Shown: positions 20,512 through 59,644 of the stretch, piece after piece
How the letters are laid out: each line of letters starts with the position of its first letter
Position numbering within the stretch: the first letter of the stretch is position 1
NCBI RefSeq assembly: GCF_004355185.1
Contig: NZ_CP037922.1
Location: 62,001 to 126,000, forward strand
From: Hymenobacter radiodurans
Lineage (GTDB): Bacteria > Bacteroidota > Bacteroidia > Cytophagales > Hymenobacteraceae
DNA length: 64,000 nucleotides
Reading direction: 5' to 3'
Translations under genes and position numbers: made by a program
The notes under the pieces: model-generated
Database searches by the model: none
What the model saw: only the letters and a program-made list of their open reading frames with translations
Told to the model about the DNA's origin: nothing

Positions 20512-22295
20512 TTACACTTCTTCCGTCTGCAGCTGCCGTTCGTAGAGAGCACGGTAGAGGCCATTTGCGTCCGCCATCAGTGCAGCGTGGGTGCCATGCT
20601 GCACAATCTGGCCGTCGTCGAGCACAAGAATCTCATCAGCTAGCTTCACCGATGATACTCGATGAGAGATAATCAGACTGGTGCGGTTGGCCATAATGCG
20701 TTGAAGGCTACCCAGAATGGCATTCTCCGTGTTGGTATCTACAGCTGAGAGCGAGTCATCCAGAATCAGAATTTTGGGCTCCTTAACCAAAGCTCGGGCA
20801 ATACTGACGCGCTGTTTTTGCCCCCCAGACAGCGTAATGCCTCGCTCACCGAGCTTGGTGTCGAAGCCCAGCGGAAACTGTACGATGTTATCGTACACGT
20901 TGGCGTCTTTGGCCGCTTGCAGCATTCTTTCCTCCGTCGGGTTTTCGAGGCCGAAATTGATATTGTTGCGGATAGAGTCCGAAAACAGGAACACATCCTG
21001 GGGTACGTAGCCAATTTGCTCCCGCAACGACGTCAGGGCATAGTCGCGCACATCGGTACCGTCTACCAGAATGCTGCCGTCGGTTACATCGTAAAGACGA
21101 CAAAGCAGGGCCGCTACGGTGCTTTTGCCTGAGCCCGTATTGCCGATAACCGCCAGCGTTTGACCGGGCCGAATCCGGAAGCTGACGTTTTTAAGAGCCT
21201 GAATACCAGTGTCGGGATATGTGAAAGACACATTGTCGAATACGATATCACCTTGAATGTCGCGCTCTACATTTTGGCGGGAGATGATGTCCGTCTTCTG
21301 ATTCATGAACTCGTTGATGCGTGCCTGTGAAGCTTCTGCCCGCTGCACGAGGCTGCTAGTCCAGCCCAGGGCCGTAACGGGCCAGGTAAGCAGGTTTACA
21401 TAAATCAGAAACTCGGCAATACTGCCTACGCTGATAGTGCCACGAATAACTTCCTGTCCCCAATCCAGACGGTGATAATGGTGCTTAAGCCGACTAGAAA
21501 CAGAATCAGCGGGAAAAACAGGGAGTTCACAAAGTTCAGACTCAATGACTTCTCCCGGTAGTTGTCGCTAGCGACGGTGAACTGCTGGTGCGAATCTTCT
21601 TCACGGACAAACGACTTCAGTACTCGGATGCCCGAAAACGCCTCCTGCACGAACGTTGTCATGCTAGAGAGTGAGCGTTGAATTTCATCCGACTTGCGCT
21701 CAATCAGATTATTGACGTAGAAAATGCTGATAGAGAGAATCGGCAGCGGCAAAAGTGTGTAAATCGTCAGCTTCACGTTCACCATCAGCATCAGCGGGAT
21801 GATGAGCACAAATAGAACGACGAGCTGCAGGAAGTACATGATGGCCGGCCCGATGTACATGCGCACCCGGCCCACGTCCTCGGAGATGCGCGACATCAGG
21901 TCGCCGGTATTGTGGCGCCGGTAGAAGCTCAGCGGCAACGATTGGTAATGCTGAAAAATCTCGTTCTTCTGGTCGTTCTCTACCCGCCGCGACATCACAA
22001 TGAGCGTCTGGCGCATGAAGAACAGGAAAATGCCCCGCAGCAGCGCCATAATTACAATGAGCAGACCGTAAAGGAGCACGTTGCGCCCAAACAGCTCGTA
22101 CACGCCGCTTTGCGCCTGCGTGCCGGCAAAAAGGTGATACAAGTCGATGCCTTCATTCACCAAATCGAAGGCGTAGCGCACGATTTGGGCCGGGAAAATA
22201 GCCAGCAGCGTCGACAGCGCCACGAATAGCACCCCGCCCAGGAAATGCCATTTATAGCGATACAAATACTTATTGGTAGAGGCAAGAGCGCGCAC
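20512..22295 (-). CDS. ABC exporter half-transporter, frame broken as sequenced
   Basis: The transmembrane domain (from ATG 22295) and the nucleotide-binding domain are in different frames. Adding one base at the C4 run 21458-21461 (G on the coding strand) reads VWIGGQEVIRGTISVGSIAEFLIYVN and joins them into 594 residues. The NBD has Walker A GNTGSGKST, signature LSGGQKQR (encoded across a copy of the dispersed 11-mer) and Walker B ILILDDSLSAVD. The family is the MsbA/MdlA-type exporters. Asp-Asp in place of the usual Asp-Glu in Walker B suggests a degenerate site and possible heterodimer formation. Confidence 0.85.
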
Positions 22296-22381
22296 AGGTC
22301 GAGGGGTTGGGATGGGGTAGCGAAGGGAGTCGCCAAGCGGTGTAAGCCCGACGGCTGGGGGGCAAAATCAGAAAATCGGGT

Positions 22382-22389
22382 TACTTTTG
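22382..22389 (+). promoter_or_regulatory. Possible promoter -7 element merged with the C-run motif
   Basis: TACTTTTG followed by CCCCC points towards the leucine dehydrogenase gene, 175 bases downstream. Confidence 0.35.
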
Positions 22390-22563
22390 CCCCCAAATTG
22401 AGGGGTAATGCTAAGCTCCAGCTCCGCAAATCGTCGTACGTCTAACGTTAGTTACGACCACAACGATTCACCATGTTGGAGCTTCGTCTTGCCCTCAAAG
22501 ATACAACAACCGCTTTCCACCCAGTTTACCTTCCCACCCACCCAATTTTAATTTTTGTCCCGC

Positions 22564-23655
22564 ATGGTTGAAATCCAAGAGTTGACCAATACTTCGGTCT
22601 TCGGTCAGATTGCCGAGCATCAACACGAACAGGTCGTATTCTGCCACGACCACGAAACTGGCCTCAAGGCCATTATCGGTATTCACAACACGGTGCTTGG
22701 CCCAGCTTTGGGCGGTACTCGCATGTGGGAATACGCTTCCGACGCAGAAGCCCTGAACGACGTGCTGCGTTTATCACGCGGCATGACCTACAAGGCAGCC
22801 ATTTCGGGCTTGAACCTAGGCGGTGGCAAAGCCGTCATCATTGGCGACGCCAAAACGCAAAAAACCGAAGCCTTGCTACGCAAGTTTGGTCGCTTCGTGA
22901 AGAATCTCAACGGCAAGTATATCACGGCCGAAGACGTAGGGATGACGACCAAGGATATGCAGTATATCCGCATGGAAACCAAGCACGTAGCTGGCCTTCC
23001 TGAGAGCATGGGCGGTTCTGGCGACCCTTCACCCGTGACGGCTTTTGGTACCTATATGGGTATGAAAGCCGCTGCCAAGAAAGCCTTTGGATCGGAGAGC
23101 TTGGCTGGCAAGCGCATTGCGGTGCAGGGCGTAGGCCACGTGGGGGGCTATTTGTTGGAGCACCTCATTAAGGAAGGCGCCAAAATTGTGCTGACCGACT
23201 ACTACGAGGACCGCAAGCTAGAAATGGCGGCCAAGTATAACGCGGTAGCCGTGGGCCTCGATGAAATCTACGATCAGGAGGTAGATATCTACTCACCTTG
23301 CGCGCTGGGTGCCACCATCAACAGTGACACAATTGACCGCTTGAAGTGCCGCGTTATTGCGGGCTGCGCCAACAACCAGCTGCAGGACGAGAACGTGCAT
23401 GGGCCGGCGCTGGTAGAGCGCGGCATCATTTACGCTCCCGACTTCCTTATTAATGCTGGGGGGCTAATTAATGTCTACTCCGAGGTAATTGGCGGTAGCC
23501 GCAAGTCGGCCCTGAGCCAGACTGAAAAGATTTACGACTTCACCACAGAAGTGCTTAACAAGGCTGAGCTTGAGGGAATTCATCCTCAAAAAGCCGCTAT
23601 TCGCCAAGCTGAGCAGCGTATTGCTGCATTAGGCAAGGTAAAATCAACTTATTAA
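22564..23655 (+). CDS. Leucine dehydrogenase (Glu/Leu/Phe/Val dehydrogenase family)
   Basis: ATG 22564 is preferred to an in-frame TTG three codons upstream. The 363-residue length, the opening MVEIQELTNTSVFGQIAEHQHEQVVF and the glycine-rich GLNLGGGKAVIIGD with its catalytic Lys, plus Asp in AEDVGMTTKDM, fit branched-chain amino-acid dehydrogenases rather than GDH. The Rossmann motif is VQGVGHVGGYLLEHL. It reversibly deaminates leucine-type amino acids with NAD. It stands alone upstream of nusB, a common order in Bacteroidota. Confidence 0.88.
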   Translation: MVEIQELTNTSVFGQIAEHQHEQVVFCHDHETGLKAIIGIHNTVLGPALGGTRMWEYASDAEALNDVLRLSRGMTYKAAISGLNLGGGKAVIIGDAKTQKTEALLRKFGRFVKNLNGKYITAEDVGMTTKDMQYIRMETKHVAGLPESMGGSGDPSPVTAFGTYMGMKAAAKKAFGSESLAGKRIAVQGVGHVGGYLLEHLIKEGAKIVLTDYYEDRKLEMAAKYNAVAVGLDEIYDQEVDIYSPCALGATINSDTIDRLKCRVIAGCANNQLQDENVHGPALVERGIIYAPDFLINAGGLINVYSEVIGGSRKSALSQTEKIYDFTTEVLNKAELEGIHPQKAAIRQAEQRIAALGKVKSTY

Positions 23656-23770: not shown

Positions 23771-24955
23771 ATGCTCAATCGTCGCTCGCTTCGCATCAAG
23801 GTTATGCAGGCCCTATACGCTTACCATCAGGCAGTAGGGTCAGATTTTCTGCTGGCCAATGACCGCATTGCCGAGGAATTTGCCCCCGACCTCACTTCCC
23901 CCGAACCCCAGGACCGCAAGGTGCTGCAAGGTCAGCGCAAGCTGGCCGAGGTCATCTTTAAGGAATGGCATAAGACCAAAGCTGACCCGGAAAAAACCGA
24001 AGATGTTGCCGTAAACGAGGCTGTGGCCGATGCCATCAGCTTCTATGAAAAGCAGGTCAAGAAAGAAGGGACCTTCTTTGAGGGGCAAATGCTGCACGCC
24101 GCGGAGAGCATTCACGACCAATATATTCATCTGCTGAACCTGCCTACCACTTTGCTGCGGGTGATGGAAGACGAGCGCGACCGTGAAGCACGTCGGTTTA
24201 CGCCTTCTAAGGAAGCACTACTCGACACTACTCGCTTTGAGCAAAACCAAGTGCTGGAGAAGCTCGTGGGCAATAAGCAGCTGCAGGACCTCACCATTCG
24301 GCGCAAGCTGCAATGGAACGGCGAGCAGGAGATGGAAGCGCTTCGCACCGCTTGGCGTCAGGAAATAAAGCAGGACGCCGAGTTTCAGGCGTACTTGGCC
24401 GCACCGGGGGGCAATTATACCGAAGACCAGGAAGCGCTGAAGCACCTGTACAAAACCTTCGTGTTTAAGGAAGGCGCACTGGCTACCCAGCTAGATGAGG
24501 CTGACCTGAACTGGGAGGAAAATCGTCCGGTTGTGAAAAACCTAGTGGTGAAGACTATAAAGATGCTCGACGAGGCGGCCGACGAGAATCTTGAGCTTAT
24601 GGCACTGTCAGCCAACTGGGCCGAGGACAAGGAATTTGCCCAAAGCCTTTATCAGCAAACGCTTGCGGATGACGAGCGCTACGAAAAGCTGATTGCCGAG
24701 TCAGTACAGAACTGGGATGTGGAGCGCGTAGCCCAACTCGACAAGATCGTGCTGAAGATGGCCCTCTGCGAAATGCACCTTTTCCGTAGCATTCCGGTGA
24801 AGGTGACCATCAACGAGTACATCGAAATTAGCAAGATGTATAGCACACCTAAAAGCAAGCAGTTTATCAACGGTATTCTGGACAAGCTGGCCCAGGATTT
24901 GACGGCTAGCGGTGCTATCCGCAAGTCGGGTCGTGGCTTGCTTGACAATCAGTAA
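23771..24955 (+). CDS. nusB: Transcription antitermination factor NusB with long N-terminal extension
   Basis: The C-terminal about 140 residues are the helical NusB domain (NWDVERVAQLDKIVLKMALCEM, SIPVKVTINEYIEISKMYSTPKSKQFINGILDKL). NusB binds boxA RNA with S10 in antitermination complexes. At 394 residues it is far longer than the roughly 140-residue enterobacterial protein; the extra N-terminal helical region begins MLNRRSLRIKVMQALYAY, itself NusB-like, and is typical of Bacteroidota. It heads the nusB-ytxH-icd-DUF1573-yajC-ybbR-coaE stretch. Confidence 0.9.
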   Translation: MLNRRSLRIKVMQALYAYHQAVGSDFLLANDRIAEEFAPDLTSPEPQDRKVLQGQRKLAEVIFKEWHKTKADPEKTEDVAVNEAVADAISFYEKQVKKEGTFFEGQMLHAAESIHDQYIHLLNLPTTLLRVMEDERDREARRFTPSKEALLDTTRFEQNQVLEKLVGNKQLQDLTIRRKLQWNGEQEMEALRTAWRQEIKQDAEFQAYLAAPGGNYTEDQEALKHLYKTFVFKEGALATQLDEADLNWEENRPVVKNLVVKTIKMLDEAADENLELMALSANWAEDKEFAQSLYQQTLADDERYEKLIAESVQNWDVERVAQLDKIVLKMALCEMHLFRSIPVKVTINEYIEISKMYSTPKSKQFINGILDKLAQDLTASGAIRKSGRGLLDNQ

Positions 24956-26579: not shown

Positions 26580-26733
26580 AAAAAAGCCCCCCAGCGCCTA
26601 ATTTTGTGCGCCTCACTAGGGCCAAGTGGCTGCTAGGTGCCGGAACCCCGCCCAGCATTCACCTGTTGTAGCTTTTTTAATTGAAAACGAAGAACTTAGG
26701 CTGTCCAAATAAGATGGTCTGCTAACAAACTCC

Positions 26734-27258: not shown

Positions 27259-27267
27259 AACGGTAAG

Positions 27268-28669: not shown

Positions 28670-29271
28670 GTATGCTGCGGATTGGTATTACCGGCGGAAT
28701 TGGGTCGGGGAAGAGTATTGTCTGCCGGTTGTTTCAACTGTTGGGCGTGCCGGTTTATGATTCCGACTATCGAGCCAAATGGATCATGGCCAATGATTTA
28801 GGTCTGCGAGCCGAACTATTGACCACATTTGGTTCCCAGACGTTTAGCGAGTCGGGCCAGCTGGATAGAGCCTATTTGGCCCGCGTTGCCTTCTCAGACC
28901 CCGCGCAGCTAACCCAGCTCAATACTTTGGTGCACCCGCACGTAGGCCGCGACTTTGAAACTTGGGCCGTAGTGCAGCAGCAAGCAGGACACGCCTACTC
29001 GTTAAAGGAGGCAGCTTTGCTTTTTGAGTCGGGTGCCTACCGCCAGCTCGACCGTATTATTACGGTTTTTGCCCCCCAAGACGTGCGACAAGCCCGCGTA
29101 TTACGCCGCGACCCCCACCGTACTGCTGCCGATATTCTGGCTATTGTCGGCAAGCAGATGAGCGAGGAGGAAAAGGTCCAGCGGGCCGATTACGTCGTGT
29201 ACAATGATGATCAGCAATTATTGATACCGCAGGTGCTGGCGCTCGATACGCTGTTTCGGCAGCAGGTGTAG
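28666..29271 (+). CDS. coaE: Dephospho-CoA kinase
   Basis: CoaE phosphorylates dephospho-CoA in the last step of CoA synthesis. The P-loop GGIGSGKS spans residues 10-17, VYDSDYRAKWIM is the CoA-site Asp motif, and LVHPHVGRDF and ERD-type lid residues follow. The 201-residue length is normal. It overlaps the ybbR-like gene by 4 bases, implying translational coupling. A copy of the dispersed 11-mer encodes VFAPQD at 29067-29077. Confidence 0.92.
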   Translation: MSMLRIGITGGIGSGKSIVCRLFQLLGVPVYDSDYRAKWIMANDLGLRAELLTTFGSQTFSESGQLDRAYLARVAFSDPAQLTQLNTLVHPHVGRDFETWAVVQQQAGHAYSLKEAALLFESGAYRQLDRIITVFAPQDVRQARVLRRDPHRTAADILAIVGKQMSEEEKVQRADYVVYNDDQQLLIPQVLALDTLFRQQV

Positions 29272-29278: not shown

Positions 29279-30451
29279 CTACCTGATTATCGCGCTACGC
29301 TCGAATTTTCGGGTGGGGTCGAAAAGCTTGCGGTACGTCACGTGCGTTTTGGAAATGCGGGCTCCGATGGAGCGGGTAAGAGCCAACATACGCGGGTTGA
29401 AGTCGCCGATCCAGTTCATCTCAATTTCCGTGTAGCCTGCCGCCACAAGTGCCTCTTGCGCGTGCACCAGCATCGCCGACTCGACGCCCTTGCCTTGGTG
29501 AGCGGGTACCACGCCGAAGATGACCCCAAACATTTTGCGCGGCTGTCGGCGTTCGTAGCGCCATTTTTCCCATACAAACCGAATTTTGCCCCCCAGATTT
29601 AGCCTTGGCCCTACGTGCTTAAAAATCTGATTCAACTCGGGCAAACTCACAAAAAAAGCGACGGGCTCACCCTGGTGATAAGCAAACCAAAGCAGGCGCG
29701 TGTCCATAACGGGCCGCATTTGGCGCACCAGCTGGTGCGCTTTGTCCAACGTCATCGGGTTGATACCCGAATGATTAGCCCAAGCCAGGTTATACACATG
29801 ATGAAAATCATGGGCCATCTGGTCGGCTGAGCGACCTACTGAGTGGGCAAACGTGTAAGCTGGCTCCTCCTGCGCGTAGCGCTCAGCGGTGCGCGTAAAG
29901 CTTGGGTGCAGAGGCTCAGCTACTTCCCGGTGACAGGTGTACTGCTTGAAGTACACCTGAAAGCCATAGTTTTCAAACAGCTGCTGATAATAAGGCGGAT
30001 GATAAAACATCCCATAGTTAGGCTCCGTGAAGCCCGAGACCAGCAAGCCCCAAAACCGGTCGCGCTCCCCAAAGTTGATAGGCCCATCCATGGCCTGCAT
30101 CCCACGCGTCAGTAGCCACTCCTGGGCAACACCAAAGAGTTGGTTGGCTGCGGCCTGATCATTAATGCACTCAAAAAAACCGATTCCACCGGTCGGTAAC
30201 GTAGGATCGGTGTGTGCGGTAAGCTCATTCACAAAAGCGGCGATGCGACCAATGGCCCGACCTTGTGCATTGGTCAGAACCCAGCGAGTGGCTGTGCCAT
30301 GCTGAAAGTTGGGATTGCGTCGCGTGTCGAATACGGCCTCAACATCATTATCGAGGGGCGAAATCCAGTTAGGATGGTGTTGATAAATTTGGGCCGGCAG
30401 CTCCAGAAATTGCCGCCGGTGCTGAGCAGTAGAAACTTCAAGCAGTGACAT
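29279..30451 (-). CDS. GNAT-like protein (about 390 aa, YghO type)
   Basis: ATG 30451 (MSLLEVSTAQHRRQFLELPAQIY) is preferred to 30478, since the extra nine residues are unlike the family. The protein begins with a segment typical of the long GNAT-like proteins of Bacteroidota (HPNWISPLDNDVEAVFD, RNPNFQH) and has an acetyl-CoA-loop region near the C-terminus (VPAHQGKGVESAMLVHAQEAL). The acceptor is unknown. It converges on coaE with only 7 bases between stop codons and no hairpin. Confidence 0.7.
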   Translation of the reverse strand: MSLLEVSTAQHRRQFLELPAQIYQHHPNWISPLDNDVEAVFDTRRNPNFQHGTATRWVLTNAQGRAIGRIAAFVNELTAHTDPTLPTGGIGFFECINDQAAANQLFGVAQEWLLTRGMQAMDGPINFGERDRFWGLLVSGFTEPNYGMFYHPPYYQQLFENYGFQVYFKQYTCHREVAEPLHPSFTRTAERYAQEEPAYTFAHSVGRSADQMAHDFHHVYNLAWANHSGINPMTLDKAHQLVRQMRPVMDTRLLWFAYHQGEPVAFFVSLPELNQIFKHVGPRLNLGGKIRFVWEKWRYERRQPRKMFGVIFGVVPAHQGKGVESAMLVHAQEALVAAGYTEIEMNWIGDFNPRMLALTRSIGARISKTHVTYRKLFDPTRKFERSAIIR

Positions 30452-30523: not shown

Positions 30524-32149
30524 TTACTTATCAGAGCGTCGAAAAACCGACAGGATGCGCACGCCATTAACCTGAATAGTATGTACTTCCCGACCGATGG
30601 TGTCGGGAAAAGAATGCGTTCGATAACGATAGTTGGTGAGGGTATAGTCGGCGTTTTGGTGGTTTGTGAAGCGTAGGCGGGCGCGGTCGGCGGGGGGCAA
30701 AATTAGCGAGTTCGTATAAACTAGGTGACCACTGGGCCAGGGCGAGTATACGTTGATTGTGGGAGCCTGGTCGTGCATAAGTGCCCATTCAAGCCCCTGA
30801 CGGTAGGAAAGGCCCCAATAGTCGAGGTCGAAGTTGTGCTGAGCGAAGCTGGGGGGCAAAATGCTGAAATACGTCTGCTGGTGCGGATGGTCGCGCACTA
30901 TGCGCCAGGCCGCGTGTACCATTCCGCCGCTGACAACTAGGGCCGCACTTATAGCCACCGGCCGCCACTGAGGCCGCTGCCGCGCTGTTGCCGCGAGCGT
31001 ATGCACGCCATGCACCGCCAGAAGTATCAGCGCTGGATAGATGAAGTATAAGTGCCGCCAGCCATCATACACTACCGGACGCAATGCCATGACCAGTAGC
31101 ACAGGTACCAGTAGCCAGCTCACGAAAAGCAGATCGAGGCGCCCGGCAAATGAACTTACGCTTGCTCGCCCTCGCCAACTTATCTTCCGCAGCCAGAGGC
31201 CCACTCCGATTAAGGCGGATATTACGTAAGGTAAAGGCGTTGTGATGATTATCCATACTGGGATATAATGCCAGGGAAGCTGCGTGCCCGGCAAGACTTG
31301 CCCAAAGTATACCACCCGCCCCGCCCAGGGGTATTGGCTAATTCGCTGCGTAGCCGCTAAAAGTTCTTTCCAGGGCAAGGCCCATAAGTAGGGCCACCCC
31401 AACACCGTAAAAATCAGCGCGGCCACAGTATATACTCCGCCCACTCGCAGCAACATTCCGCGCTCATTCCGCGCTCGGTGGCGGGCTTCCAGCCACAGCA
31501 TAACCAGCGTTACGACTAGCAGCAGCAACCCCTGCACGCGCACATCGACGGCCAGCGCCGTGGCGAGCCCGTGGACGAGGGCGCGCCCCCGCGTCGGGTG
31601 GTGCAGCAGCCGCACCAGCGTGTAGATAGCCAGCGTGAAGAAGGCCATATACACGATGTCTTTGCCGTTGTAGAAAGCCTCGGCAAAAAACCGGGGCGAG
31701 AGCACGAGCAGCCCCGTGCCCAATAACCCCCAACGCCAGCTTTCAAACCGTTGCTTTCCGAGCTGATACAAGGCCCAAACCCCGAGCACGAAAACAAGAA
31801 AGACGCAAAGGTGACGAAGACGATAGAACGCCTGTGAATCGCCATGAGTAAAAACAAAGCTGAGCAGGGCCAACGGCAGCTCGAACGCTACACCATGATC
31901 AGCATCCGCAAAGTTCTGGATGTCGGGAATCAGGCGACTGCTGGGTTGGCTGGCTACCAACTCGGGAGCTACCAACTGAGCCAGGTACTTTGCACTGACT
32001 AGCCCATTGAGGTGGTTGTTCGGCTCATCCCACGATACGCCGTAGTCATTATGCAGCCACAAACCTATGCTGATCAACACCCCAAAAAAGCCCCCTACAA
32101 TCCACTGGCTGCTCGACTTAAAGAAACGAAAGCGAAACAAGTCAGGCAT
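30524..32149 (-). CDS. GT39/ArnT-like membrane glycosyltransferase
   Basis: The 541-residue protein has about ten hydrophobic segments and, in its first periplasmic loop, NDYGVSWDEPNNHLN, the acidic motif (Asp-Glu) typical of GT-C glycosyltransferases that use polyprenyl-phosphate sugars. A soluble C-terminal tail follows. Substrate unknown. Two copies of the dispersed 11-mer (30692, 30851) both encode Ile-Leu-Pro-Pro. It begins 75 bases beyond a long hairpin. Confidence 0.75.
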   Translation of the reverse strand: MPDLFRFRFFKSSSQWIVGGFFGVLISIGLWLHNDYGVSWDEPNNHLNGLVSAKYLAQLVAPELVASQPSSRLIPDIQNFADADHGVAFELPLALLSFVFTHGDSQAFYRLRHLCVFLVFVLGVWALYQLGKQRFESWRWGLLGTGLLVLSPRFFAEAFYNGKDIVYMAFFTLAIYTLVRLLHHPTRGRALVHGLATALAVDVRVQGLLLLVVTLVMLWLEARHRARNERGMLLRVGGVYTVAALIFTVLGWPYLWALPWKELLAATQRISQYPWAGRVVYFGQVLPGTQLPWHYIPVWIIITTPLPYVISALIGVGLWLRKISWRGRASVSSFAGRLDLLFVSWLLVPVLLVMALRPVVYDGWRHLYFIYPALILLAVHGVHTLAATARQRPQWRPVAISAALVVSGGMVHAAWRIVRDHPHQQTYFSILPPSFAQHNFDLDYWGLSYRQGLEWALMHDQAPTINVYSPWPSGHLVYTNSLILPPADRARLRFTNHQNADYTLTNYRYRTHSFPDTIGREVHTIQVNGVRILSVFRRSDK

Positions 32150-33158: not shown

Positions 33159-35789
33159 GTGAGGGAGGCCAAAAAACCTCTCAACTGTTTCACTACCAGA
33201 AAATTTCGGTTGTTGATTCGTTTAAAAAAGTTTTTTCTGTACTCGCTGCTGGGAGGCATTTTGCTGCTGTTGGGGGGCATTTTGGGAATCTGGCTGGGGG
33301 AGGAGCGCATCATTGCGCTGTTTGTGCGGGAAGCCAACCGGCACCTGCGTACACCTGTGCAAGTGGGTAAAATTGATCTTTCGTTGATCGATCAGTTTCC
33401 GCGAGTGTCGGTAACGCTGCAGAATGTGGTAGTGGGGGGCTCTTTACCTCAAGATACCGTGGCTCTGGCGCGCGCCCGTCGCTTATACTGCGCCTTCGAC
33501 GTTTGGGACCTTGTAGCTGGTCGTTACCGCATTCGGGCCGTGACCCTGGACTCAGCAACGGTGCAGGTGCGCTATGATGCGCAAAGCCAACCTAACTGGG
33601 ACGTCTTTCGGGCCGATTCATCGGGCACATCCGATGATAAGCCCTTCGCATTTGATTTGGAACGTATCGTGCTGCGGCGGGTGCTGGTAATATACGATGA
33701 TGCAGCGCGGCGGCAGCGGCATACTATCCGAGCCCACGACTTGCGCGCGGGCCTTTCGGTAACGGATGAGCTCATTGATATTCAAGCCGATGGGAAGGCG
33801 CGTATCGAAGGGATTGAGCTAGGGCAGGATAAATACTTTCGGCAAAAGGAGTTGACACTGAAGACCCTGATAGCTATTGACCGCCCAGGCCGACGAGTTA
33901 CCATTCAGCCCTCCGATTTGCGCATTGGGCCCGCTACGTATGGTGTGGCGGGTACGGTAGGATATGGAGGCGAAACGCAACTGGATTTACGCTTGGAGGG
34001 TCGGCAGACAGACATCCAATCGGTGGTGGCGTTGCTGCCGTCGCGCCTGGCTGGAAACTTAAGCGCTTACCGTAGTAGGGGTGAGGTGTATTTTAGAGGT
34101 ACGGTACGCGGAGCTATGTCTGCGCGCAGCAATCCGCGGGTAGATGTGCAGTTTGGCTGTCGCGATGCTTCCTTCTATCATCCTGAGTACCGCGAGACCG
34201 TGGAACACGTCTATCTGACGGGGTCCTTTGATAATGGCAACAAGCGGTCGTTGAGCACGTCTACGTTGGCTTTGCGGCAGGTGCGCGGCACGCTACACGG
34301 GCGGGCGCTGGGGGGCAATTTGCGCTATCATAACTTCGAAGACCCAACGGTACAACTCGACCTGCGGGCTGACCTTGACGTAGCCCGTGCGTTGCGCTTC
34401 TACCCAGTAGCCGCCGTGCGTACAGCCAGTGGTGATGCGCGCCTAGCCGTGCGCTTCAACGGCAACCTGCGAGCCTTCCGGGCCCAACCTGCAACCGCCG
34501 CCGTGCAGTCTAGCGGCGACCTGACGCTACGAGGTGTGAGTTTGCGCCTGCGCGATTTTGGGCAGCCGTTTACGGGGCTCAGTGGCAACTTTATTCTGCG
34601 TCGTAACGATGTAGCCGTTAGTGATTTTAAGGGGCGAATAGGTCGCTCTGACTTTCAATTAAACGGCCTGTTCAAAAATGCGCTGGGGTGGCTATTGCTT
34701 CCCCGCCAACAGCTCTTAGTGGAGGCCGATGTGGAGTCGCGCTTACTTGATTTTGACCAGCTGCTGAGCGCGCAATTAGCTGACGCTGCGCAGAAAAGCC
34801 CCCCAAAGGGTAAAAAGCGCGGGCCGCAATCCGAATACGAGTTTCACGTAGCCCCCAATCTGGCCTTAGACGTACAGGCCAGCGTAGGCCGAGTGCAATT
34901 TCGGCGGTTCCGGGGGCGTAACCTCAATGGCACGGTGCGCCTGCGCGACCAAGTTATTTCTTCGCCTACGCTGAGTGTGGCAGCGGCTGGCGGCCAAGCC
35001 AGCATTCGAGGAAGCATTGATGCGCGCCAGCCCGATTTGCTGAAGGTGCATACCACCATGGCCTGCTCGCAGCTGCCGCTTGATAGTCTGTTTTACGTGT
35101 TTGAGGACTTTGGCCAGAAGTTTATTACGGCTCGTCACCTACGCGGCCGCCTCACGGCTTCGGGCGAGTCGGACCTGTACTTTGACCGCCGTCTGACGCC
35201 GCTTACTGACCGAATGGAAGCCGAAGTAAGAGCAACGGTGCGCGATGGGGAACTCAATAATTTTGAGCCGTTGCAGAAGCTTTCTATGATAGCTCGTCGG
35301 GACCAATTGCGCCATTTGCGCTTCGCAGAGCTCACCAACAACTTCTATATTCAGAGCCGGACAGTGTATATGCCGGAAATGGAAATCCGCTCTAACGTGC
35401 GCACTGCCTCCATTATTCGCGTTACGGGCACGCATACCTTTGATCAGCAGATGGATTATCACCTCTCTATTCCGGTATTGCCGGGGCTGCTGCATCGGGC
35501 ATCTATGGGGGGAAGCGGCACCACTGGGCCCAACCTGTTGCTGGCTATTCAGGGCGATGAGAACAACTTCAAAGTAAGCTATGATCGGGCGCGCGCGCAG
35601 GCTAACCGGGCTGCCGCAACGCCCCCCGGCAGCGGTCCGCGTCCTAATCTGAGTGATGCACTGGATGTCACTACCGATCCTGTTGCGACGCCTGCGACTC
35701 GGCCGGCAGAGGCGCGAAAGCCATTTGAGCTGAAAAAGCCGGTAAAGAAGCCAGCCCAGCCACAACCCGACGAGTATTTCGATTTCTAG
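33159..35789 (+). CDS. AsmA-like outer-membrane assembly/lipid-transport protein
   Basis: This 876-residue protein has one N-terminal membrane helix (LKKFFLYSLLGGILLLLGGILGIW) followed by long beta-rich repeats of the AsmA/YhdP type (VQVGKIDLSLIDQFPRVSVTLQNV at the front, an AsmA C-terminal region near HTFDQQMDYHLSIPVLPG). AsmA-family proteins bridge inner and outer membrane and are thought to move phospholipid. A Pro/Ala/Lys-rich tail ends it. The GTG at 33159 is the first possible start; TTG codons at 33210 or 33213 sit closer to the helix and are equally possible. Confidence 0.75.
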   Translation: MREAKKPLNCFTTRKFRLLIRLKKFFLYSLLGGILLLLGGILGIWLGEERIIALFVREANRHLRTPVQVGKIDLSLIDQFPRVSVTLQNVVVGGSLPQDTVALARARRLYCAFDVWDLVAGRYRIRAVTLDSATVQVRYDAQSQPNWDVFRADSSGTSDDKPFAFDLERIVLRRVLVIYDDAARRQRHTIRAHDLRAGLSVTDELIDIQADGKARIEGIELGQDKYFRQKELTLKTLIAIDRPGRRVTIQPSDLRIGPATYGVAGTVGYGGETQLDLRLEGRQTDIQSVVALLPSRLAGNLSAYRSRGEVYFRGTVRGAMSARSNPRVDVQFGCRDASFYHPEYRETVEHVYLTGSFDNGNKRSLSTSTLALRQVRGTLHGRALGGNLRYHNFEDPTVQLDLRADLDVARALRFYPVAAVRTASGDARLAVRFNGNLRAFRAQPATAAVQSSGDLTLRGVSLRLRDFGQPFTGLSGNFILRRNDVAVSDFKGRIGRSDFQLNGLFKNALGWLLLPRQQLLVEADVESRLLDFDQLLSAQLADAAQKSPPKGKKRGPQSEYEFHVAPNLALDVQASVGRVQFRRFRGRNLNGTVRLRDQVISSPTLSVAAAGGQASIRGSIDARQPDLLKVHTTMACSQLPLDSLFYVFEDFGQKFITARHLRGRLTASGESDLYFDRRLTPLTDRMEAEVRATVRDGELNNFEPLQKLSMIARRDQLRHLRFAELTNNFYIQSRTVYMPEMEIRSNVRTASIIRVTGTHTFDQQMDYHLSIPVLPGLLHRASMGGSGTTGPNLLLAIQGDENNFKVSYDRARAQANRAAATPPGSGPRPNLSDALDVTTDPVATPATRPAEARKPFELKKPVKKPAQPQPDEYFDF

Positions 35790-41221: not shown

Positions 41222-41250
41222 AGCTGGTGCTAGTGCGAGAATCTGGGGGG

Positions 41251-41258
41251 CAAAAATA
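41251..41258 (-). promoter_or_regulatory. hemA promoter -7 element fused to the dispersed motif
   Basis: TATTTTTG on the minus strand fits TAnnTTTG and runs straight into CCCCCCAG, 24 bases upstream of ATG 41221. The start site would fall within or just after the C-run. Confidence 0.55.
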
Positions 41259-41536
41259 CGGCGGAAATCGCTAGTGTGAAAACAGCCGACACTCCATAGT
41301 GGTTCGAGGGTATGTAAAGTATCGTGCCAAAACGCTTATAACCCGGCTGGGGGGCTTTTTGGTGCGCAGATAAACTTAAAAAATTCGTGTAGCGACCTGC
41401 TACGAAGCAGAACCGTGGAACCTGAGTTGAGGGGAAAGCGTCTGCATCGGGCGCGGGCACGTATCTTCGTTGCCCGTGCGTTTGTAGTTCTTCGCGCCTC
41501 CCGTGGGGGCTTTTCTGCCTTACAGCTTTTCTGCCT

Positions 41537-43852: not shown

Positions 43853-43900
43853 ACCCCGAAAGAAGGACTTTGGGGGGCAAAAGGTTTGCTGAAATCGAAG

Positions 43901-44668: not shown

Positions 44669-44891
44669 AATTGCGAGGGATTAGCGTTTCCCTGCTGATG
44701 CCACGCCGGAGATAATTCCACACGAAATAGCCAAAAATTTTGCCCCCCCCAAACTAAGTCAGGGCAAAGCGCTCCGCGGCTCTGGTCTTCAATTGGGCGC
44801 CATCTGACAAGAAGCTAGCGCCGGGGTGTGCAGCCCCGCCGCAATATTCTTTATCTTTTGCCCCCCAAACCTTCTGCCCTTCACCCTTCGA

Positions 44892-46640
44892 ATGAGTTCT
44901 TTTTCCTCCCTCTTCCGTCGTAAAGACATTTCCACCATCCTGCAAAACCCGCCTGTCGACACTGCCGCCCACCCTGGTAGCACGGAAGAAGGTGCCTTGG
45001 AACGCAACCTCACCGTGCGCGACCTCACCGCGCTGGGTATTGCTGCTGTTATTGGGGCCGGTATTTTCAGCACCATCGGCAATGCCAGCCACGACGGCGG
45101 CCCGGCTGTGTCGCTGCTTTTTGTATTCACCGCCATTGCCTGCGCATTTTCGGCGCTGTGCTACGCGCAGTTTGCCGCTACCATTCCCATCAGTGGCTCG
45201 GCTTATACCTACGCTTACGCATCCTTTGGGGAGTTAACGGCCTGGATAATTGGCTGGGCTCTGATTATGGAATATGCGGTAGGCAACATCGTGGTCGCTA
45301 TTTCCTGGTCCGATTACTTCACCGGACTCATGCAAGGCATTGGGCTAGAGGTGCCTGCTTACCTAAGTATGGGTTTTCAGAGCGCTTATCAAGGCTACCA
45401 TACTGTGCTGGAGCTGATGCTAGCCGGGCGGCCCCTCACCGAGGCCTCGCCCGCCGATATGGCTGGCTATCAAACTTGGATTAGCGCGCCAGAACTCACT
45501 GATTCTCTTCGCTTAGTCATCGACCTGCCTGCTTTCGGTATTACGTTTCTGATTACCTGCCTTGTGTACGTGGGGATTAAAGAATCAAAAAATGCCTCCA
45601 ATTTATTGGTGCTACTCAAACTCATTGTAGTAGCCATAGTAATTATAGTAGGCGTTTTCTATGTGAATACTGGCAACTGGACCCCTTTCGCGCCTAACGG
45701 CGTGAGCGGTGTGCTCAAAGGCGTATCGGCCGTATTCTTCGCCTACATTGGCTTCGACGCCATCAGCACCACCGCCGAAGAGTGCAAAAACCCGCAGCGC
45801 GATTTGCCCCGCGCTATGATATACGCGTTGATTATCTGTACGGTACTTTATGTGATTATTACGCTGGTACTCACCGGTATGGTATCGTATAAGGAACTCG
45901 GTGTAGGTGACCCGCTGGCTTTCGTTTTCACCAAAGTTGGTCTGCCAAAGCTGGCGGGCTTGGTAGCGGTAAGTGCTATTTTCGCTATGGCGTCAGTGCT
46001 GCTCGTGTTCCAGATTGGCCAGCCCCGCATCTGGATGTCGATGTCGCGCGACGGACTTTTGCCCCCCGTGTTTGCCCGCGTACATCCCCGCTTCCGCACC
46101 CCGTCTTTTAGCACCATTGTCACGGGCCTATTCGTGGGTATCCCGGCTTTGTTGCTCAATATGGACTTAGTAATCGACCTAACCAGCATCGGTACCTTGT
46201 TCGCCTTTGCGCTGGTGTGTGGCGGTATTCTGCTCATTGATCCACACGGTACTTCCGACGCACGCTTCAAGGTGCCTTACCTCAATGGCAAGTTCCTTGT
46301 GCCGCTGGTAGTACTCGTGGGGGGCATTTTATTACTGACTTATAACGGCGAGCAGGTAGCCGAGTTCGGCCGTGCCGTGCGCGGCGACAGTGGCTACGAA
46401 GGCTTCCGTCACTACATCCCGATGCTGGTGTTTCTGGGCTTCTGCGTGTACCTGAGCATTGCTTCCTTTCGCAATCGGCTCTCGTTGCTGCCAGTGCTAG
46501 GCCTGCTCACCAACCTCTACCTGATGACGCAGCTAGGCGTGAGCAACTGGCTACTGTTTTTTGCCTGGTTGGTGATGGGGCTCGGCGTGTATTTTGGCTA
46601 CGGCTACAAGCATAGCAAGCTGGGCCTGAAGAAGGTCTGA
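44892..46640 (+). CDS. APC-family amino-acid permease
   Basis: ATG 44892 ([14 protein letters not shown]) is chosen over the open frame further upstream, which crosses a copy of the dispersed motif. The 582-residue protein has twelve or more membrane helices with the APC signatures [33 protein letters not shown] and the [16 protein letters not shown] block. It is of the cationic amino acid transporter type; the substrate is not certain. It stands alone. Confidence 0.85.
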
Positions 46641-48801: not shown

Positions 48802-48813
48802 ATAAGCGCGATG

Positions 48814-49833
48814 TTAAGAGCTTTGTCGCCATCCTTGCAACTGTTGCGCAAAGTTCAACGCAGGCATGTCTCGGACTTGAAAACGACCAAGACGATATTT
48901 ATCAGAGACCGAACCGATTGGTAAAGCTTCTGTAGTGAAGGCGGCCCGAAATCCTAACTCGGCAGCTAAGGCTACGGTTTCAGGAATGTAGTTTCCGTAG
49001 GGATACGTGAGATACTGTATGCGTTTGCCCGTTACGGTTTCTAAAAAAGCTTTGTTGTCGACTAATTCTTGCTGTTGTACTGCGCGCGGGTGGAAAGACA
49101 AAGCAGGATGCGAGTGTGTATGCGCGCCAAGCGTGTGTAGGGAGCTTTGACTTAGGTCTTGCAGTTGCTGCCGCGAAAGACTGCGGTACGTCGGGCGCTG
49201 ACTGGGAGCAACCCCCGCCCACTGCCGGACTTGGTGCAGCTGCCGCTGCTGTTCGTCGGAAGGCAAGGGGCGCAGTAACTCCCAAATCTGCAGAAATAAC
49301 TTAGCCCGTAACGTAGGAGGAGGCACCTCACTGGCTGACCACTGTTTATGTTGAGCTCGTAGGGAAGCACTTAAACTGACCTCTGAGTCTAGCGCTAGAT
49401 ATAGTTCTGTGTTCGCAACGGTGCCGAAGAATGCTTGTGGTAATTCCTTTGTCAGTAGTATAATATCTTCTAGTTCATCCCACCAGAATTCAGTGGCTGT
49501 ATCTATCGTCTGAGACGCAATGAAAAATGTAGCCGGCAAACCGTAGGTGTCAAGTATAGGCTTAGCAACAAGACCATTGTCTGCGTAGCCATCATCAAAG
49601 GTTAGGACAACGCTCCGCGGTTTGAGGGTTCTTTTGTCTATTGCTTCCACTAGTTCCTCTACGGAAATCACCCTCGCTTTGCGATGTAAGAACTCCATCT
49701 GCTGCTCAAAGTGACTGGGCGACACAGCTAGATTCCACACGTCGGACTCGAGTTCTGCCACCCGATGGTACATGAGCACGCACACATGTGCTCGGGGGGC
49801 AAAACCTAGAAAAGATCCTATCTTATTGAGCAA
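48814..49833 (-). CDS. NodB-type polysaccharide deacetylase
   Basis: The 339-residue protein has the NodB catalytic motif VVLTFDDGYADNGL (Asp-Asp) and the metal site HTHSHPALS, with YLTYPYGNY later. It removes acetyl groups from N-acetylhexosamines in a surface glycan. There is no signal peptide, so it probably works on cytoplasmic or membrane-linked intermediates. It overlaps the upstream gene by 11 bases. A dispersed-motif copy (49794-49804) encodes Gly-Phe-Ala-Pro-Arg near the start. Confidence 0.82.
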   Translation of the reverse strand: MLNKIGSFLGFAPRAHVCVLMYHRVAELESDVWNLAVSPSHFEQQMEFLHRKARVISVEELVEAIDKRTLKPRSVVLTFDDGYADNGLVAKPILDTYGLPATFFIASQTIDTATEFWWDELEDIILLTKELPQAFFGTVANTELYLALDSEVSLSASLRAQHKQWSASEVPPPTLRAKLFLQIWELLRPLPSDEQQRQLHQVRQWAGVAPSQRPTYRSLSRQQLQDLSQSSLHTLGAHTHSHPALSFHPRAVQQQELVDNKAFLETVTGKRIQYLTYPYGNYIPETVALAAELGFRAAFTTEALPIGSVSDKYRLGRFQVRDMPALNFAQQLQGWRQSS

Positions 49834-52721: not shown

Positions 52722-52727
52722 ACCTAG

Positions 52728-54011: not shown

Positions 54012-54017
54012 ACGACC

Positions 54018-54875: not shown

Positions 54876-55174
54876 GTGTTGTGTGTGATACTGGCCCTAA
54901 GACCAGGCAGAAATTCTGAAACTAGAGCAGTGCTCGGGATAAGCTAGCTCGTGTAGCTTAGGTGATAAAGAAAGGTAAGGCTGATTCGTGTTCGGACCAA
55001 ACTACAGAAAAGCCCCCCGCACGCAGCAAATGTAGCGGTAGCTTTCACGGAATGACGCACAAGGGTTTCAATTAAATCCTTGATTCTCACAACTATTTCA
55101 GGAATGCATACGATGTGCTTTGCTTGCTAACGAGCCCAAACTGAACCGGCCGTGAACTGCGTACATAGCGCACT
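54876..55174. other. Divergent intergenic region between wzm and lpxR
   Basis: The region holds the candidate wzm promoter at 55027-55034 and a half-terminator-like AAAAGCCCCCC (55011-55021). Nothing else is recognised and no ORF is convincing. Confidence 0.5.
55027..55034 (-). promoter_or_regulatory. Candidate promoter of the polysaccharide operon
   Basis: TACATTTG on the minus strand fits TAnnTTTG, about 150 bases upstream of wzm. Confidence 0.45.
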
Positions 55175-56155
55175 ATGCGCTACTGGCTGAGCACTTTGCT
55201 GCTGATTTTTATCCTTATCGAAACCGGGCGGGCCCAAAAAATGCCCCCCGACAGTAGCGTCGTCAGTTCTGACCACATCATTGCTTATTCATTCGCCAAC
55301 GACGCCTTTTTTCGCACCGATTATTATTTTACCCAAGGCATGACCCTGAATGTAGTGCTGCCCGTGCTGGCTAAGTCGCCGGTAAATAAAATCCTGTTGG
55401 GGGGCAAAATGGCGGCGGTGCGCTATTATGGCGTGAAGGTATTTTATGATGGCTTTACGCCCCTGCGAATACAGGATGCTTTTATTCGGGTGGGCGACCG
55501 GCCGTATGCCTCCTATATCTATGCTTCGCTGTACCGCGTAGCCAATCAGCCCCAACAACGGCAGCGCCTTACTGCTGGTCTCGACATAGGATTTATGGGG
55601 CCGGCTGCCGGGGCCAAGGGTTTTCAAACCAAAGTGCATGAACTGCTGGATGCACCCACGCCGCGAGGTTGGGATTATCAAGTGCAAAACGATCTGGTGC
55701 TGGGCTATCAGCTAGGCTTCGAAAAACAGCTGCTGGGGGGCAAATTTGCGGAGCTAATTGGTACGGCGAGAACCTCGGTGGGTACACTGAATACCCTGGC
55801 AGCCACAGGTTTGCTATTGCGCATGGGCAAGATGAATCCGTATTTCCGTAACCTGGGCGTAAGCTCGGCGGCAGGGCGTGCTGGGGGGCAAAAATTTCAG
55901 CTTTATGCCCAAGGTCGCCTGGAAGGAAGAGCGGTGGGCTACAATGCTACGATGCAAGGCGGAATACTTAATCGGCAGAGTCCTTATACGCTGCGTGCTG
56001 AGCAGTTGAAGCGCACAGTAGTGCAGGGCAGCGGCGGAGTAGTGCTTGCCTACGGTGGCCTCCGCTTCGAGCCATCGGCTACTTGGGTGTCTCCGGAGTT
56101 TCGGGGCGGACGGGCGCACCGGTGGGTTCAGTTTGAGGTTTGGGTGGCTTTTTAG
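55175..56155 (+). CDS. lpxR: Lipid A deacylase LpxR family protein
   Basis: After a signal peptide comes the DUF2219/LpxR barrel: FANDAFFRTDYYFTQGM (Asn-Asp and Thr-Asp block), RVGDRPYASYIYASLYR, and KVHELLDAPTPRGWDYQ with the His and Trp of the active site. LpxR removes the 3'-acyloxyacyl chains of lipid A at the outer membrane. Placement next to a polysaccharide export operon suggests surface remodelling. Three dispersed-motif copies (one with AAAT) lie within it, encoding Gly-Gly-Lys or Gly-Gly-Gln. Confidence 0.82.
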   Translation: MRYWLSTLLLIFILIETGRAQKMPPDSSVVSSDHIIAYSFANDAFFRTDYYFTQGMTLNVVLPVLAKSPVNKILLGGKMAAVRYYGVKVFYDGFTPLRIQDAFIRVGDRPYASYIYASLYRVANQPQQRQRLTAGLDIGFMGPAAGAKGFQTKVHELLDAPTPRGWDYQVQNDLVLGYQLGFEKQLLGGKFAELIGTARTSVGTLNTLAATGLLLRMGKMNPYFRNLGVSSAAGRAGGQKFQLYAQGRLEGRAVGYNATMQGGILNRQSPYTLRAEQLKRTVVQGSGGVVLAYGGLRFEPSATWVSPEFRGGRAHRWVQFEVWVAF

Positions 56156-56365: not shown

Positions 56366-56415
56366 GTACCGGATAAATTCTGCCGACGACGGTAAGACGC
56401 AGGTGGCGGCGGGAG

Positions 56416-57354: not shown

Positions 57355-57439
57355 TGTAGAGGAAACTGGGGGGCTTTTTTTAAGAAAAATACGAGAACAC
57401 CCCACTGGCTAGGGCGGGCTTTTAGGCTAAAGCAGAGTG

Positions 57440-58429
57440 CTACCCTACCATTACCGGCTCGGCAGCGGCAATTTCTTCCAGAATTTCCAGAATGATTGCG
57501 GGCTGCTCAGCGTCTACAAGTCGGGTGCGCCACTGCTTGGCGCCTTCCAGGCCCCGGAAATACTGAGCATAGTGGCGGCGCATCTCAAACACGCCCACGC
57601 GCGGACCTTTCCACTCAATACTCTTCTCGAAATGCATGCGGCACATGGCTACGCGCTCCTCAATAGTGGGCGGCGCCAGCTTTTCGCCAGTAGCCAGGTA
57701 GTGCTTAATTTCGCGAAAAATCCAGGGGTAGCCAATGCTGGCCCGGCCCACCATAATACCATCGACGCCGTAGCGCTCTTTGTAAAGCGCCGCCTTTTCG
57801 GGCGAATCGATGTCGCCGTTGCCGAAGATGGGAATACGAATGCGCGGGTTGTTTTTGATCCGGTGAATAAGCGTCCAGTCGGCTTCGCCTTTGTAGAGCT
57901 GCACGCGGGTGCGGCCATGCACGGTAAGCGCCTCAATACCAATATCCTGCAAGCGCTCGGCTACTTCCTCCACGTTTTTGGTGTCATCGTCCCAGCCCAG
58001 GCGAGTTTTTACCGTCACGGGCAGGTGCGTATTCCGCACCACGGCAGAAGTCATTTCCACCATTTTTGGAATATCGCGCAGCAGGGCTGCTCCGGCTCCC
58101 CGGCAAGCCACTTGCTTCACGGGGCAGCCGTAGTTAATGTCAATCAGGTCGGGGCCAGCAGCGGTGCTGATGGCAGAGCACTCGCCCATGGTGGCCACAT
58201 CGGAGCCAAACAGCTGAATGCCGATGGGCCGTTCATAGTCGAACACGTCGAGCTTTTTGCGGCTTTTGGCTGCGTCCCGAATCAGGCCTTCCGAGGAAAT
58301 AAACTCAGTGTACATCAAATCAGCCCCATTGGCTTTGCATACGGCCCGGAACGGTGGATCGGAAACGTCCTCCATTGGAGCTAACAGCAAGGGGAAATCG
58401 GGTAGAGCGAGGTCGCGGATGTGTACCAC
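57440..58429 (-). CDS. dusB: tRNA-dihydrouridine synthase
   Basis: The FMN enzyme of 329 residues opens with LLLAPMEDVSDPPFR, has the catalytic Cys in DINYGCPVKQV, and VTVKTRLGWDDDTKNVEEVAERLQDIGIEALTVHGRTR and FGNGDI later. It reduces uridine to dihydrouridine in tRNA. The family match is strong; DusB is the usual single Dus in Bacteroidota, and I assign it on that basis. Confidence 0.9.
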   Translation of the reverse strand: MVHIRDLALPDFPLLLAPMEDVSDPPFRAVCKANGADLMYTEFISSEGLIRDAAKSRKKLDVFDYERPIGIQLFGSDVATMGECSAISTAAGPDLIDINYGCPVKQVACRGAGAALLRDIPKMVEMTSAVVRNTHLPVTVKTRLGWDDDTKNVEEVAERLQDIGIEALTVHGRTRVQLYKGEADWTLIHRIKNNPRIRIPIFGNGDIDSPEKAALYKERYGVDGIMVGRASIGYPWIFREIKHYLATGEKLAPPTIEERVAMCRMHFEKSIEWKGPRVGVFEMRRHYAQYFRGLEGAKQWRTRLVDAEQPAIILEILEEIAAAEPVMVG

Positions 58430-58498
58430 AAGTAGGCAGTTAGAGGAATTTGCGCAAATTTACGACACTTCCAAGTTTCCCGTAACCACCTGTCTGCT

Positions 58499-59554
58499 AT
58501 GAAAGGTTTCGTGTCCAGCCGATTGCACCCATTGCTGACCCTGGTCTTGCTCGTTGGCCTAATGGTGGGCGGCTTGTGCATAGCCACATTTTTAATTGCA
58601 GTCTTGGCTAGCAGCATCTACGGTATTGGCTTGCTGGAAATGGGCAACGTCACAAGCCGGCCCGACTCGCACCCCGATGGTTGGGCGTTACTTATGCTCA
58701 GCCAGGGCCTGACCTTGTTTATCGGCTTTGCCGGTTCGGCGTTGGTGCTGGCCTGGATGCAAGGCTACCGCTGGACTGAGTATTTTGCCCCCCGCCGCCC
58801 CACGCGCACCGAATGGCTGCTACTGGCCGGGCTGCTTGTCATCGTTAGCCTCCCCGCCATGTCGAGCCTGATAGAATGGAATGCTAAAATGCACTTCCCG
58901 CCGTTCATGCAGGGGTTCGAAACGTGGGCCCGCCAACTGGAGGATAAGGCAGAAGCCATGACCAAGTCGCTGACTCAATTTAATACAGTAACACGCCTGT
59001 TAGTAGCGCTGCTCGTCATTGCCATCGTGCCGGCCATTAGTGAGGAGTTGGTTTTCCGCGGGGTCGTCCAGCGCAACCTGGTGCAGTGGACGGGCAGTCA
59101 CCACGTCGGTATCTGGCTGTCGGCCGCCATTTTCAGCGCCATCCACTTCCAGTTTTTTGGCTTCATTCCGCGCCTGGCTTTGGGCGTGATTTTTGGCTAC
59201 CTCTACGCCTGGAGCGGCAATATTCTGGTGCCTATGGCTGCACACTTTACCCAGAATGCCTTTCAGCTTGTCCTGCTATACTTAGTGCAGCAGCGCGCTT
59301 TGACGACTGATGCCTTCAATCCTGACTCAACGGAAAGCCTTCCGTGGCCGCTGGTGCTGCTTTCGGCATTGCTTTCGGCTGGTATTCTATATTATCTGTA
59401 CCAAAAAATGGCCCCCGCTACCGAGCCGACGGAGGCGCATACCATTGCTAGCACTGGTATAGCCGTGCGCACTGCCGATGCGCCCGTGCCACATGAGCGC
59501 CACACGCTCAGCGGCCGGGGCATTGAAGTCGATGATGACAAGTCGGCTTCCTAA
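58499..59554 (+). CDS. CPBP-family intramembrane metalloprotease
   Basis: The 351-residue protein has about eight helices and the CPBP (CAAX protease) motifs EELVFRG (about residue 182), AAIFSAIHFQFFGF and MAAHFTQN. These form the active site of Rce1-type proteases. Bacterial members cut peptides in the membrane or act in bacteriocin immunity; the substrate is unknown. It stands 144 bases from cdsA. A motif copy encodes Phe-Ala-Pro-Arg at 58783-58793. Confidence 0.87.
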   Translation: MKGFVSSRLHPLLTLVLLVGLMVGGLCIATFLIAVLASSIYGIGLLEMGNVTSRPDSHPDGWALLMLSQGLTLFIGFAGSALVLAWMQGYRWTEYFAPRRPTRTEWLLLAGLLVIVSLPAMSSLIEWNAKMHFPPFMQGFETWARQLEDKAEAMTKSLTQFNTVTRLLVALLVIAIVPAISEELVFRGVVQRNLVQWTGSHHVGIWLSAAIFSAIHFQFFGFIPRLALGVIFGYLYAWSGNILVPMAAHFTQNAFQLVLLYLVQQRALTTDAFNPDSTESLPWPLVLLSALLSAGILYYLYQKMAPATEPTEAHTIASTGIAVRTADAPVPHERHTLSGRGIEVDDDKSAS

Positions 59555-59644
59555 CTTTTATCTTCCATTAACCTCGCTATTTTGCCCCCCACGCCCGCCC
59601 CAGCCGAATCTACTCTGACCGACCAGCCGCCGGGCAAGAAGCCG

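Follow-up and report, generated by a model that had tools for sequence, protein, structure and literature searches.

A clade-specific, highly iterated DNA word in Hymenobacter that resembles a self-recognition sequence

Why does one short DNA word recur on both strands, inside genes as well as between them, along a piece of bacterial chromosome? The question is raised by a 64,000-nt stretch of the Hymenobacter radiodurans genome (4.92 Mb), hereafter the window, in which the exact 11-mer TTTTGCCCCCC occurs 17 times between positions 20816 and 59590 (site positions are letters of the window). The first-pass annotation had judged this excess to be beyond chance, and the background models agree: 100 dinucleotide shuffles gave a mean of 0.09 copies and a maximum of 1, and an order-3 Markov model expected 0.08 copies and an order-5 model 0.6, a figure to which the word itself contributes. 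The copies are neither near the Markov expectation nor restricted to the window, as the whole genome holds 456 of them (250 on the forward and 206 on the reverse strand) and a single copy of the mirrored word.

The 11-mer is contained in a degenerate motif that reads roughly 5'-AAAWWTGCCCCCC(A/G)-3', where W is A or T. Word ranking showed that the excess belongs to a family of related words that share a core of at least four A/T, a G and six C. Written as W4GCCCCCC, this motif has 39 sites in the window, the first starting at 8495 and the last ending at 63156, and 2,991 in the genome, against 28 for its mirrored control. The extent first assigned to the feature (20816 to 59590) holds for the exact 11-mers, with W4GCCCCCC sites lying beyond both ends; the TTTT is dispensable.

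Rates were taken from 66 grid stretches, each 20 kb long (1.32 Mb; L120-L178 without L162, plus L043-L050) and picked blind to the places of the word. Stretches L031-L042, picked with these places known, were left out of the rates and used in one word ranking. All 66 grid stretches contain W4GCCCCCC, with at least six copies each (mean per stretch 12.3, variance 10.1), and the density is 613 per Mb, with 421 sites on the forward and 388 on the reverse strand. The window is average for this motif (609 per Mb); its density of exact 11-mers is 266 per Mb (17 in 64 kb), compared with 81 per Mb on the grid. First-order resampling of 20 of the 66 stretches left 6 sites where 246 were observed. The sign of the GC skew flips near 2.4 and 4.4 Mb (by eye from a table), and the strand counts on the two arms, 226/210 and 195/178, are without replichore skew. 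A 20-kb sample from contig C1 (190 kb) had 4 sites, below every grid stretch.

A logo was built on 1,025 of 1,256 W3GCCCCC sites, leaving out the 231 with GGGGGC at most 60 bases downstream. It reads A A A W W T/A G C C C C C C A/G, its nine central columns being fixed by the seed; the sixth C is present in 74%, and is followed by A/G, a weak G and little signal further out. The base after C6 is A at 593 sites, G at 189, T at 16 and C at 11. The length of the C-run is discrete (C6 604, C5 285 and C7 7.6 per Mb), with an 80-fold fall from C6 to C7. The perfect word was observed 809 times on the grid against 4.3 expected (188-fold), and words with one mismatch 686 times against 191 (3.6-fold), 376 of the 686 differing at the last C. 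The excess falls 52-fold from perfect to one mismatch, or about 104-fold when the last position is omitted.

Which genomes carry the word? Among 72 genomes of the same genus besides its own, TTTTGCCCCCC occurs 373 times in H. qilianensis JCM 19763 (G010) and 426 times in H. roseosalivarius DSM 11622 (G064), and at most 9 times in each of the other 70; 46 genomes of the same order have at most 12 copies each. For W4GCCCCCC, four of 120 Hymenobacter genomes are high (2,483; 2,991 in the own genome; 3,096; 3,473), the fourth bearer being Hymenobacter sp. BT188 (G152), and the other 116 hold at most 48. The next genome by DNA match (G032, 73% identity over 1.7 kb) is without the word in bulk, with 14 W4GCCCCCC copies. 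The word is confined to one clade within Hymenobacter, where its excess is real and large. The family Hymenobacteraceae, for which the annotation had discussed it, is too broad a scope, since other clades of the genus have other words.

We next turn to the context of the sites, using simple open reading frame (ORF) calls (longest ORFs of at least 100 aa). Of the 809 grid sites, 551 fall in coding sequence (502 per Mb), 215 in intergenic sequence (1,161 per Mb), and a further 13 at edges; the count omits the remaining 30, which lay outside the outermost ORFs of their stretch. All six sense/frame classes are used by the 551 coding sites (sense 127, 115 and 14; antisense 165, 41 and 89), the rarest, with 14 sites, encoding Ser/Cys-Pro-Pro. 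The annotation was therefore right that protein sequence does not drive the word, and codon or protein drive can be ruled out. Of 155 inverted pairs of the form AAAAAAGCCCCC...GGGGGC, 150 lie between genes. Terminator-like hairpins contain GCCCCC or GGGGGC in 190 of 294 cases on the own grid, in 87 of 149 in BT188, H. qilianensis and H. roseosalivarius taken together and in 5 of 92 in genomes without the word (both strands were scanned, so that a single hairpin may be counted twice). Since most terminator-like hairpins of the clade hold the word, it has taken over the clade's terminators. Pairs of DNA uptake sequences (DUS) in terminators are described in the part of the DUS literature at hand (PMC3630211).

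How the copies arose can be read from four sites aligned over eleven loci, seven of them from outgroups. The outgroups show substitutions there and no missing insert, which indicates that at these four sites the word arose through point substitution. Maintenance was followed in the window for all three relatives, and in a further 54 kb for BT188 and H. qilianensis. Of the 49 window sites that align in all four genomes, 14 have the motif in every genome and another 5 in all except H. qilianensis, which has an indel there. The motif is retained at 48 of 70 orthologous sites in BT188 (5 indels), 34 of 71 in H. qilianensis (19 indels) and 28 of 34 in H. roseosalivarius (3 indels), compared with background shares of identical 11-mers of 0.30, 0.23 and 0.19; the conservation check suggested by the annotation thus came out above background in all three relatives. 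Coding sites retain it in 35 of 48, 27 of 48 and 20 of 23 cases (same order). Third codon positions within words are identical in 174/187, 174/184 and 85/88 cases (93-97%), against fractions of 0.71, 0.68 and 0.64 in the rest of the genes (Fisher p 1e-13, 2e-18 and 5e-13, adjacent positions being non-independent). This high identity points to constraint or drive acting on the DNA, not on the protein. Site density in the window also varies with alignment: sequence aligned in all three relatives has 802 sites per Mb, in two 255, in one 472 and in none 147, classes that rest on 33, 3, 2 and 1 sites, the unaligned class being one site in 6.8 kb.

Two observations on the C-run itself may be recorded here. 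The H. qilianensis indels at 19 of 71 aligned word sites, with one C fewer at the site viewed, could be homopolymer sequencing errors (the completeness of this genome is 93%). The C5:C6 ratio of the word varies among the four genomes, from 0.66 in the own window and 0.81 in H. qilianensis to 0.22 in BT188 and 0.10 in H. roseosalivarius.

Word ranking in 20-kb named loci, followed by a search of the 120 Hymenobacter genomes, revealed two further words. CTACCCCC has 982-5,005 matches in 14 genomes (next highest 531) and RCCTAGG 1,940-10,475 in 10 genomes (next highest 1,246); absolute numbers are given for RCCTAGG because its mirrored control is depleted in many genomes and because a palindromic site may be scored once on each strand. 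Their logos are CCCTACCCCC(C) and (A/C)CCTAGG(T/G), the CCTAGG word being a palindrome. The strong sets of the three words do not overlap. One genome (G136) is intermediate for both of the other words (CTACCCCC 531, RCCTAGG 1,199), and RCCTAGG is raised in some CTACCCCC genomes (927 in G014, 838 in G056). In a two-gene FastTree phylogeny of 58 loci with midpoint root, CTACCCCC and CCTAGG each recur in separate clades, as if a specificity gene had moved between species. This tree comes without printed support values, its labels from 4-7-kb loci are weak, some genomes appear twice, and 4 of 62 loci, including that of H. roseosalivarius, were dropped for missing or short matches. At sites orthologous to those of the other words, relatives without the word have 1/8, 0/13 and 1/13 (backgrounds 0.27, 0.33 and 0.31), as expected if these words are derived. 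Takeover of terminators by them is weak (CCTAGG in 3 of 41 hairpins, TACCCC in 2 of 52).

Beside these words, GGATCCR, the mirror of RCCTAGG, is nearly absent from many Hymenobacter genomes (0-10 per strand) and ordinary elsewhere, which resembles restriction-site avoidance. In L069 and L070 (genome G012), GGGGCCCC is enriched (56 against 9.6 expected in 40 kb) and is possibly a fourth word.

What, then, is the word of the H. radiodurans clade? The best reading, to which we give an even chance, is an uptake-like self-recognition word akin to DUS and to uptake signal sequences (USS). In the clade of H. roseosalivarius, H. qilianensis, BT188 and H. radiodurans, such a word would have been built up by point substitution and be actively maintained. 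A DNA-binding protein would prefer fragments with AAAWWTGCCCCCC(A/G), kin DNA bearing the word would be taken up or recombined more often, and through recombination the word would both spread and be repaired. If the pilus ATPase is truly absent, the machinery would not be a classical type IV pilin system and would be pilus-independent, like that described for Riemerella. Transformation of R. anatipestifer needs ComEC, DprA, ComF and RecA together with surface and other proteins that do not resemble known machinery (PMC8459023, in the part consulted), and R. columbina, also of the Bacteroidota, favours its own DNA in competition; the A-rich words listed for it are only about 2- to 8-fold above the base-composition expectation (PMC7965970, likewise in part). 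These findings make pilus-independent self-preference plausible in Bacteroidota. A bolder form, in which a pilus-independent, sequence-specific system for self-DNA recognition or uptake has switched its word among at least three unlike ones (W4GCCCCCC, CTACCCCC and RCCTAGG) within one genus, is tentative and in our view rather doubtful. Among the papers listed in literature searches, titles and abstract openings gave no account of these words in Hymenobacter.

Several results weigh against a self-recognition word. Profile searches for the PilB/PilT-type ATPase (PF00437; pilins were not searched) found none over the cut-off in 18 genomes, the four word genomes included; three of the 18 had weak matches below it, and the control was found in 14 of 14 known genomes, 13 of them over the cut-off. 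ComEC (18 of 18 genomes searched) and DprA (24 of 24) are present equally in genomes without the word and so do not explain it. No receptor for the word was found. Ten ORFs on one side of comEC (L162), scanned for uptake genes, were ordinary metabolic and signalling genes and one TonB-plug protein; the other side (L180) was covered as an ORF list only. Even spacing of the copies, a mark of uptake words, was not significant (coefficient of variation 0.90 against 0.94 simulated, with 10% of the simulations as low). Intergenic sites retain the motif less than coding ones (13/22, 7/23 and 8/11 in BT188, H. qilianensis and H. roseosalivarius). The other two words, finally, are kept at or slightly above background in most pairs: CTACCCCC at 7/12 and 6/13 sites (one pair in both directions, background 0.39), 3/14 (0.26), 4/14 (0.24) and 3/6 (0.14), and CCTAGG at 24/34 (0.50), 3/13 (0.29), 3/13 (0.30) and 4/11 (0.29). 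They appear to turn over and may reflect another process, so that the three words are perhaps not one system.

The annotation had listed uptake, segregation, methylation, repair and a mutational trace as possible roles, a list that contains the reading preferred here. Among its other entries is a word driven by methylation or repair. A lineage-specific methylase or mismatch repair enzyme could bias substitutions without any selected function, in the manner of the highly iterated palindromes (HIPs) of cyanobacteria, where HIP1 words were replaced lineage by lineage and a methylase shares their specificity (PMC4390886, in the part consulted). Like the HIPs, the CCTAGG word found elsewhere in the genus is a palindrome, and conservation alone cannot tell drive from selection. 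One precursor, W4GCCGCCC, is below expectation (11 against 24.5), though likewise in genomes without the word (6 against 10.8). Against such a drive, W4GCCCCCC is non-palindromic in its logo, and C-to-T variants exceed expectation at each of the five inner C positions; they fit decay products, whereas depletion would be predicted if an enzyme converted them. In profile searches (other methylase families were not searched), C5 methylases (PF00145) and Vsr were found in none of the four word genomes, the Vsr control being positive in 5 of 14 known genomes, and this disfavours C5 methylation and Vsr repair; PF01555 methylases occur in two, being absent from the own genome and BT188. None of the three families is common to the clade, and we consider this explanation unlikely.

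Proteins that read DNA for other purposes fare no better. A binding site of a clade-specific chromosome-organising or nucleoid protein would fit the similar density in every grid stretch on both strands and the intergenic enrichment, and an A-tract adjoining a C-run may give the DNA a distinctive shape. However, known chromosome-ordering words are strand-skewed or regional, and the lack of skew on either replichore disfavours segregation-type words; the idea also requires that one small clade evolved a new chromosome-wide binder, and seems quite improbable. The word resembles known Chi sites, which are G-rich on one strand and abundant, and could be a recombination signal of the clade's RecBCD or AddAB. 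Chi in E. coli lies mostly on the leading strand, while the Hymenobacter word has no preferred orientation relative to replication on either arm, which makes this a very unlikely explanation. Scarcely any weight remains for a by-product of base composition, codon use, C-run slippage or a dispersed mobile repeat, even though C-runs slip easily and many terminators hold the word. Base composition and dinucleotide content are ruled out by the shuffles, the Markov models, the mirrored control and the resampling, and slippage by the sharp peak of run length at C6. The spread of coding sites over all senses and frames argues against codon use. An inserted mobile repeat (REP-like, with a unit longer than the word) is ruled out by the lack of a gap in relatives at the four aligned sites and by flanks that are nearly free of signal.

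Compared with known systems, the word shares most with the DUS of Neisseriaceae and the USS of Pasteurellaceae: thousands of copies on both strands, within genes as well as terminator hairpins; a steep fall at one mismatch; origin by point mutation; and differing words in related lineages. Absence of replichore skew and use of several frames within genes, here tested for the Hymenobacter word, are further likenesses. The excerpts consulted give DUS counts of 943 to 3,603 where a dialect is the main one (PMC3630211) and one-mismatch drops of 92-fold for USS and 82-fold for DUS, with an expectation from base composition alone that differs from our model (PMC1939737). Hymenobacter differs in that it belongs to another phylum and that no pilus ATPase was found; its words within one genus also look less alike than the DUS dialects described. 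Because the tested pilus machinery was not found, and because we infer both uptake as the process and the existence of a receptor, we do not file the word as a DUS or USS. With HIP1 and the alternate HIPs it has in common that lineage-specific iterated words replace one another at about one per kb; HIPs are palindromic and have a matching methylase, whereas the Hymenobacter word is non-palindromic and the two methylase families tested are not clade-wide. Chi and KOPS (FtsK orienting polar sequences) are likewise short, abundant, genome-wide and read by proteins, but they are strand-skewed along replichores, unlike the word described here.

Table 1. Positions of the exact 11-mer TTTTGCCCCCC and of further W4GCCCCCC sites in the window
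Feature	Position	Strand	Remarks
exact 11-mer	20816..20826	+	
exact 11-mer	22357..22367	-	
exact 11-mer, within CoaE-like gene	29067..29077	+	all four word genomes; substitutions in seven aligned outgroup loci
exact 11-mer	29584..29594	+	in 3/4 word genomes; H. roseosalivarius reads ATTTGCCCCCC
exact 11-mer	30692..30702	-	in 4/4 word genomes
exact 11-mer	30851..30861	-	in 3/4 word genomes; H. qilianensis one C shorter
exact 11-mer	39091..39101	+	
exact 11-mer	41245..41255	-	
exact 11-mer	43872..43882	-	
exact 11-mer	44738..44748	+	
exact 11-mer	44856..44866	+	
exact 11-mer	46057..46067	+	
exact 11-mer	49794..49804	-	
exact 11-mer	55399..55409	-	
exact 11-mer	55883..55893	-	
exact 11-mer	58783..58793	+	
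exact 11-mer	59580..59590	+	
W4GCCCCCC site	8495..8505	-	
W4GCCCCCC site	9173..9183	+	
W4GCCCCCC site	11704..11714	+	
W4GCCCCCC site	14581..14591	+	
W4GCCCCCC site	15415..15425	+	
W4GCCCCCC site	18314..18324	+	
W4GCCCCCC site	20461..20471	+	
W4GCCCCCC site	23142..23152	-	
W4GCCCCCC site	23458..23468	-	
W4GCCCCCC site	24406..24416	-	
W4GCCCCCC site	26582..26592	+	
W4GCCCCCC site	33272..33282	-	
W4GCCCCCC site	34310..34320	-	
W4GCCCCCC site	34794..34804	+	
W4GCCCCCC site	41349..41359	-	
W4GCCCCCC site	44258..44268	-	
W4GCCCCCC site	46319..46329	-	
W4GCCCCCC site	55008..55018	+	
W4GCCCCCC site	55239..55249	+	
W4GCCCCCC site	55735..55745	-	
W4GCCCCCC site	57368..57378	-	
W4GCCCCCC site	63146..63156	+	

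Some features of the surrounding sequence were noted in passing. Positions 46652-55137 of the window, which hold glycosyltransferase and ABC transporter genes and 2 word sites in 8.5 kb, are missing from the aligned stretches of BT188 and H. roseosalivarius and mostly (to 52761) from that of H. qilianensis. In a locus of Hymenobacter citatus (L077), inverted pairs around GCGAAGGACCT, about 55 bp apart and resembling repetitive extragenic palindromes, lie near 2658-2714, 8878-8933 and 10602-10657 (0-based starts). TTAGCTG-type words rank high in L089 and L103, with a tandem array in L089 near 17820-17876.

To our knowledge, few bacterial groups have well-documented self-recognition words in such strong excess. 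If the reading proposed here is true, a word maintained at the DNA level in members of the Bacteroidota that yielded no pilus ATPase, alongside sister lineages that differ in their words, would offer a natural system for the study of word origin, switching and the genetic isolation of species, and the word would point to an as yet unrecognised DNA-binding receptor. If repair bias is the cause instead, it would be an unusually strong one.

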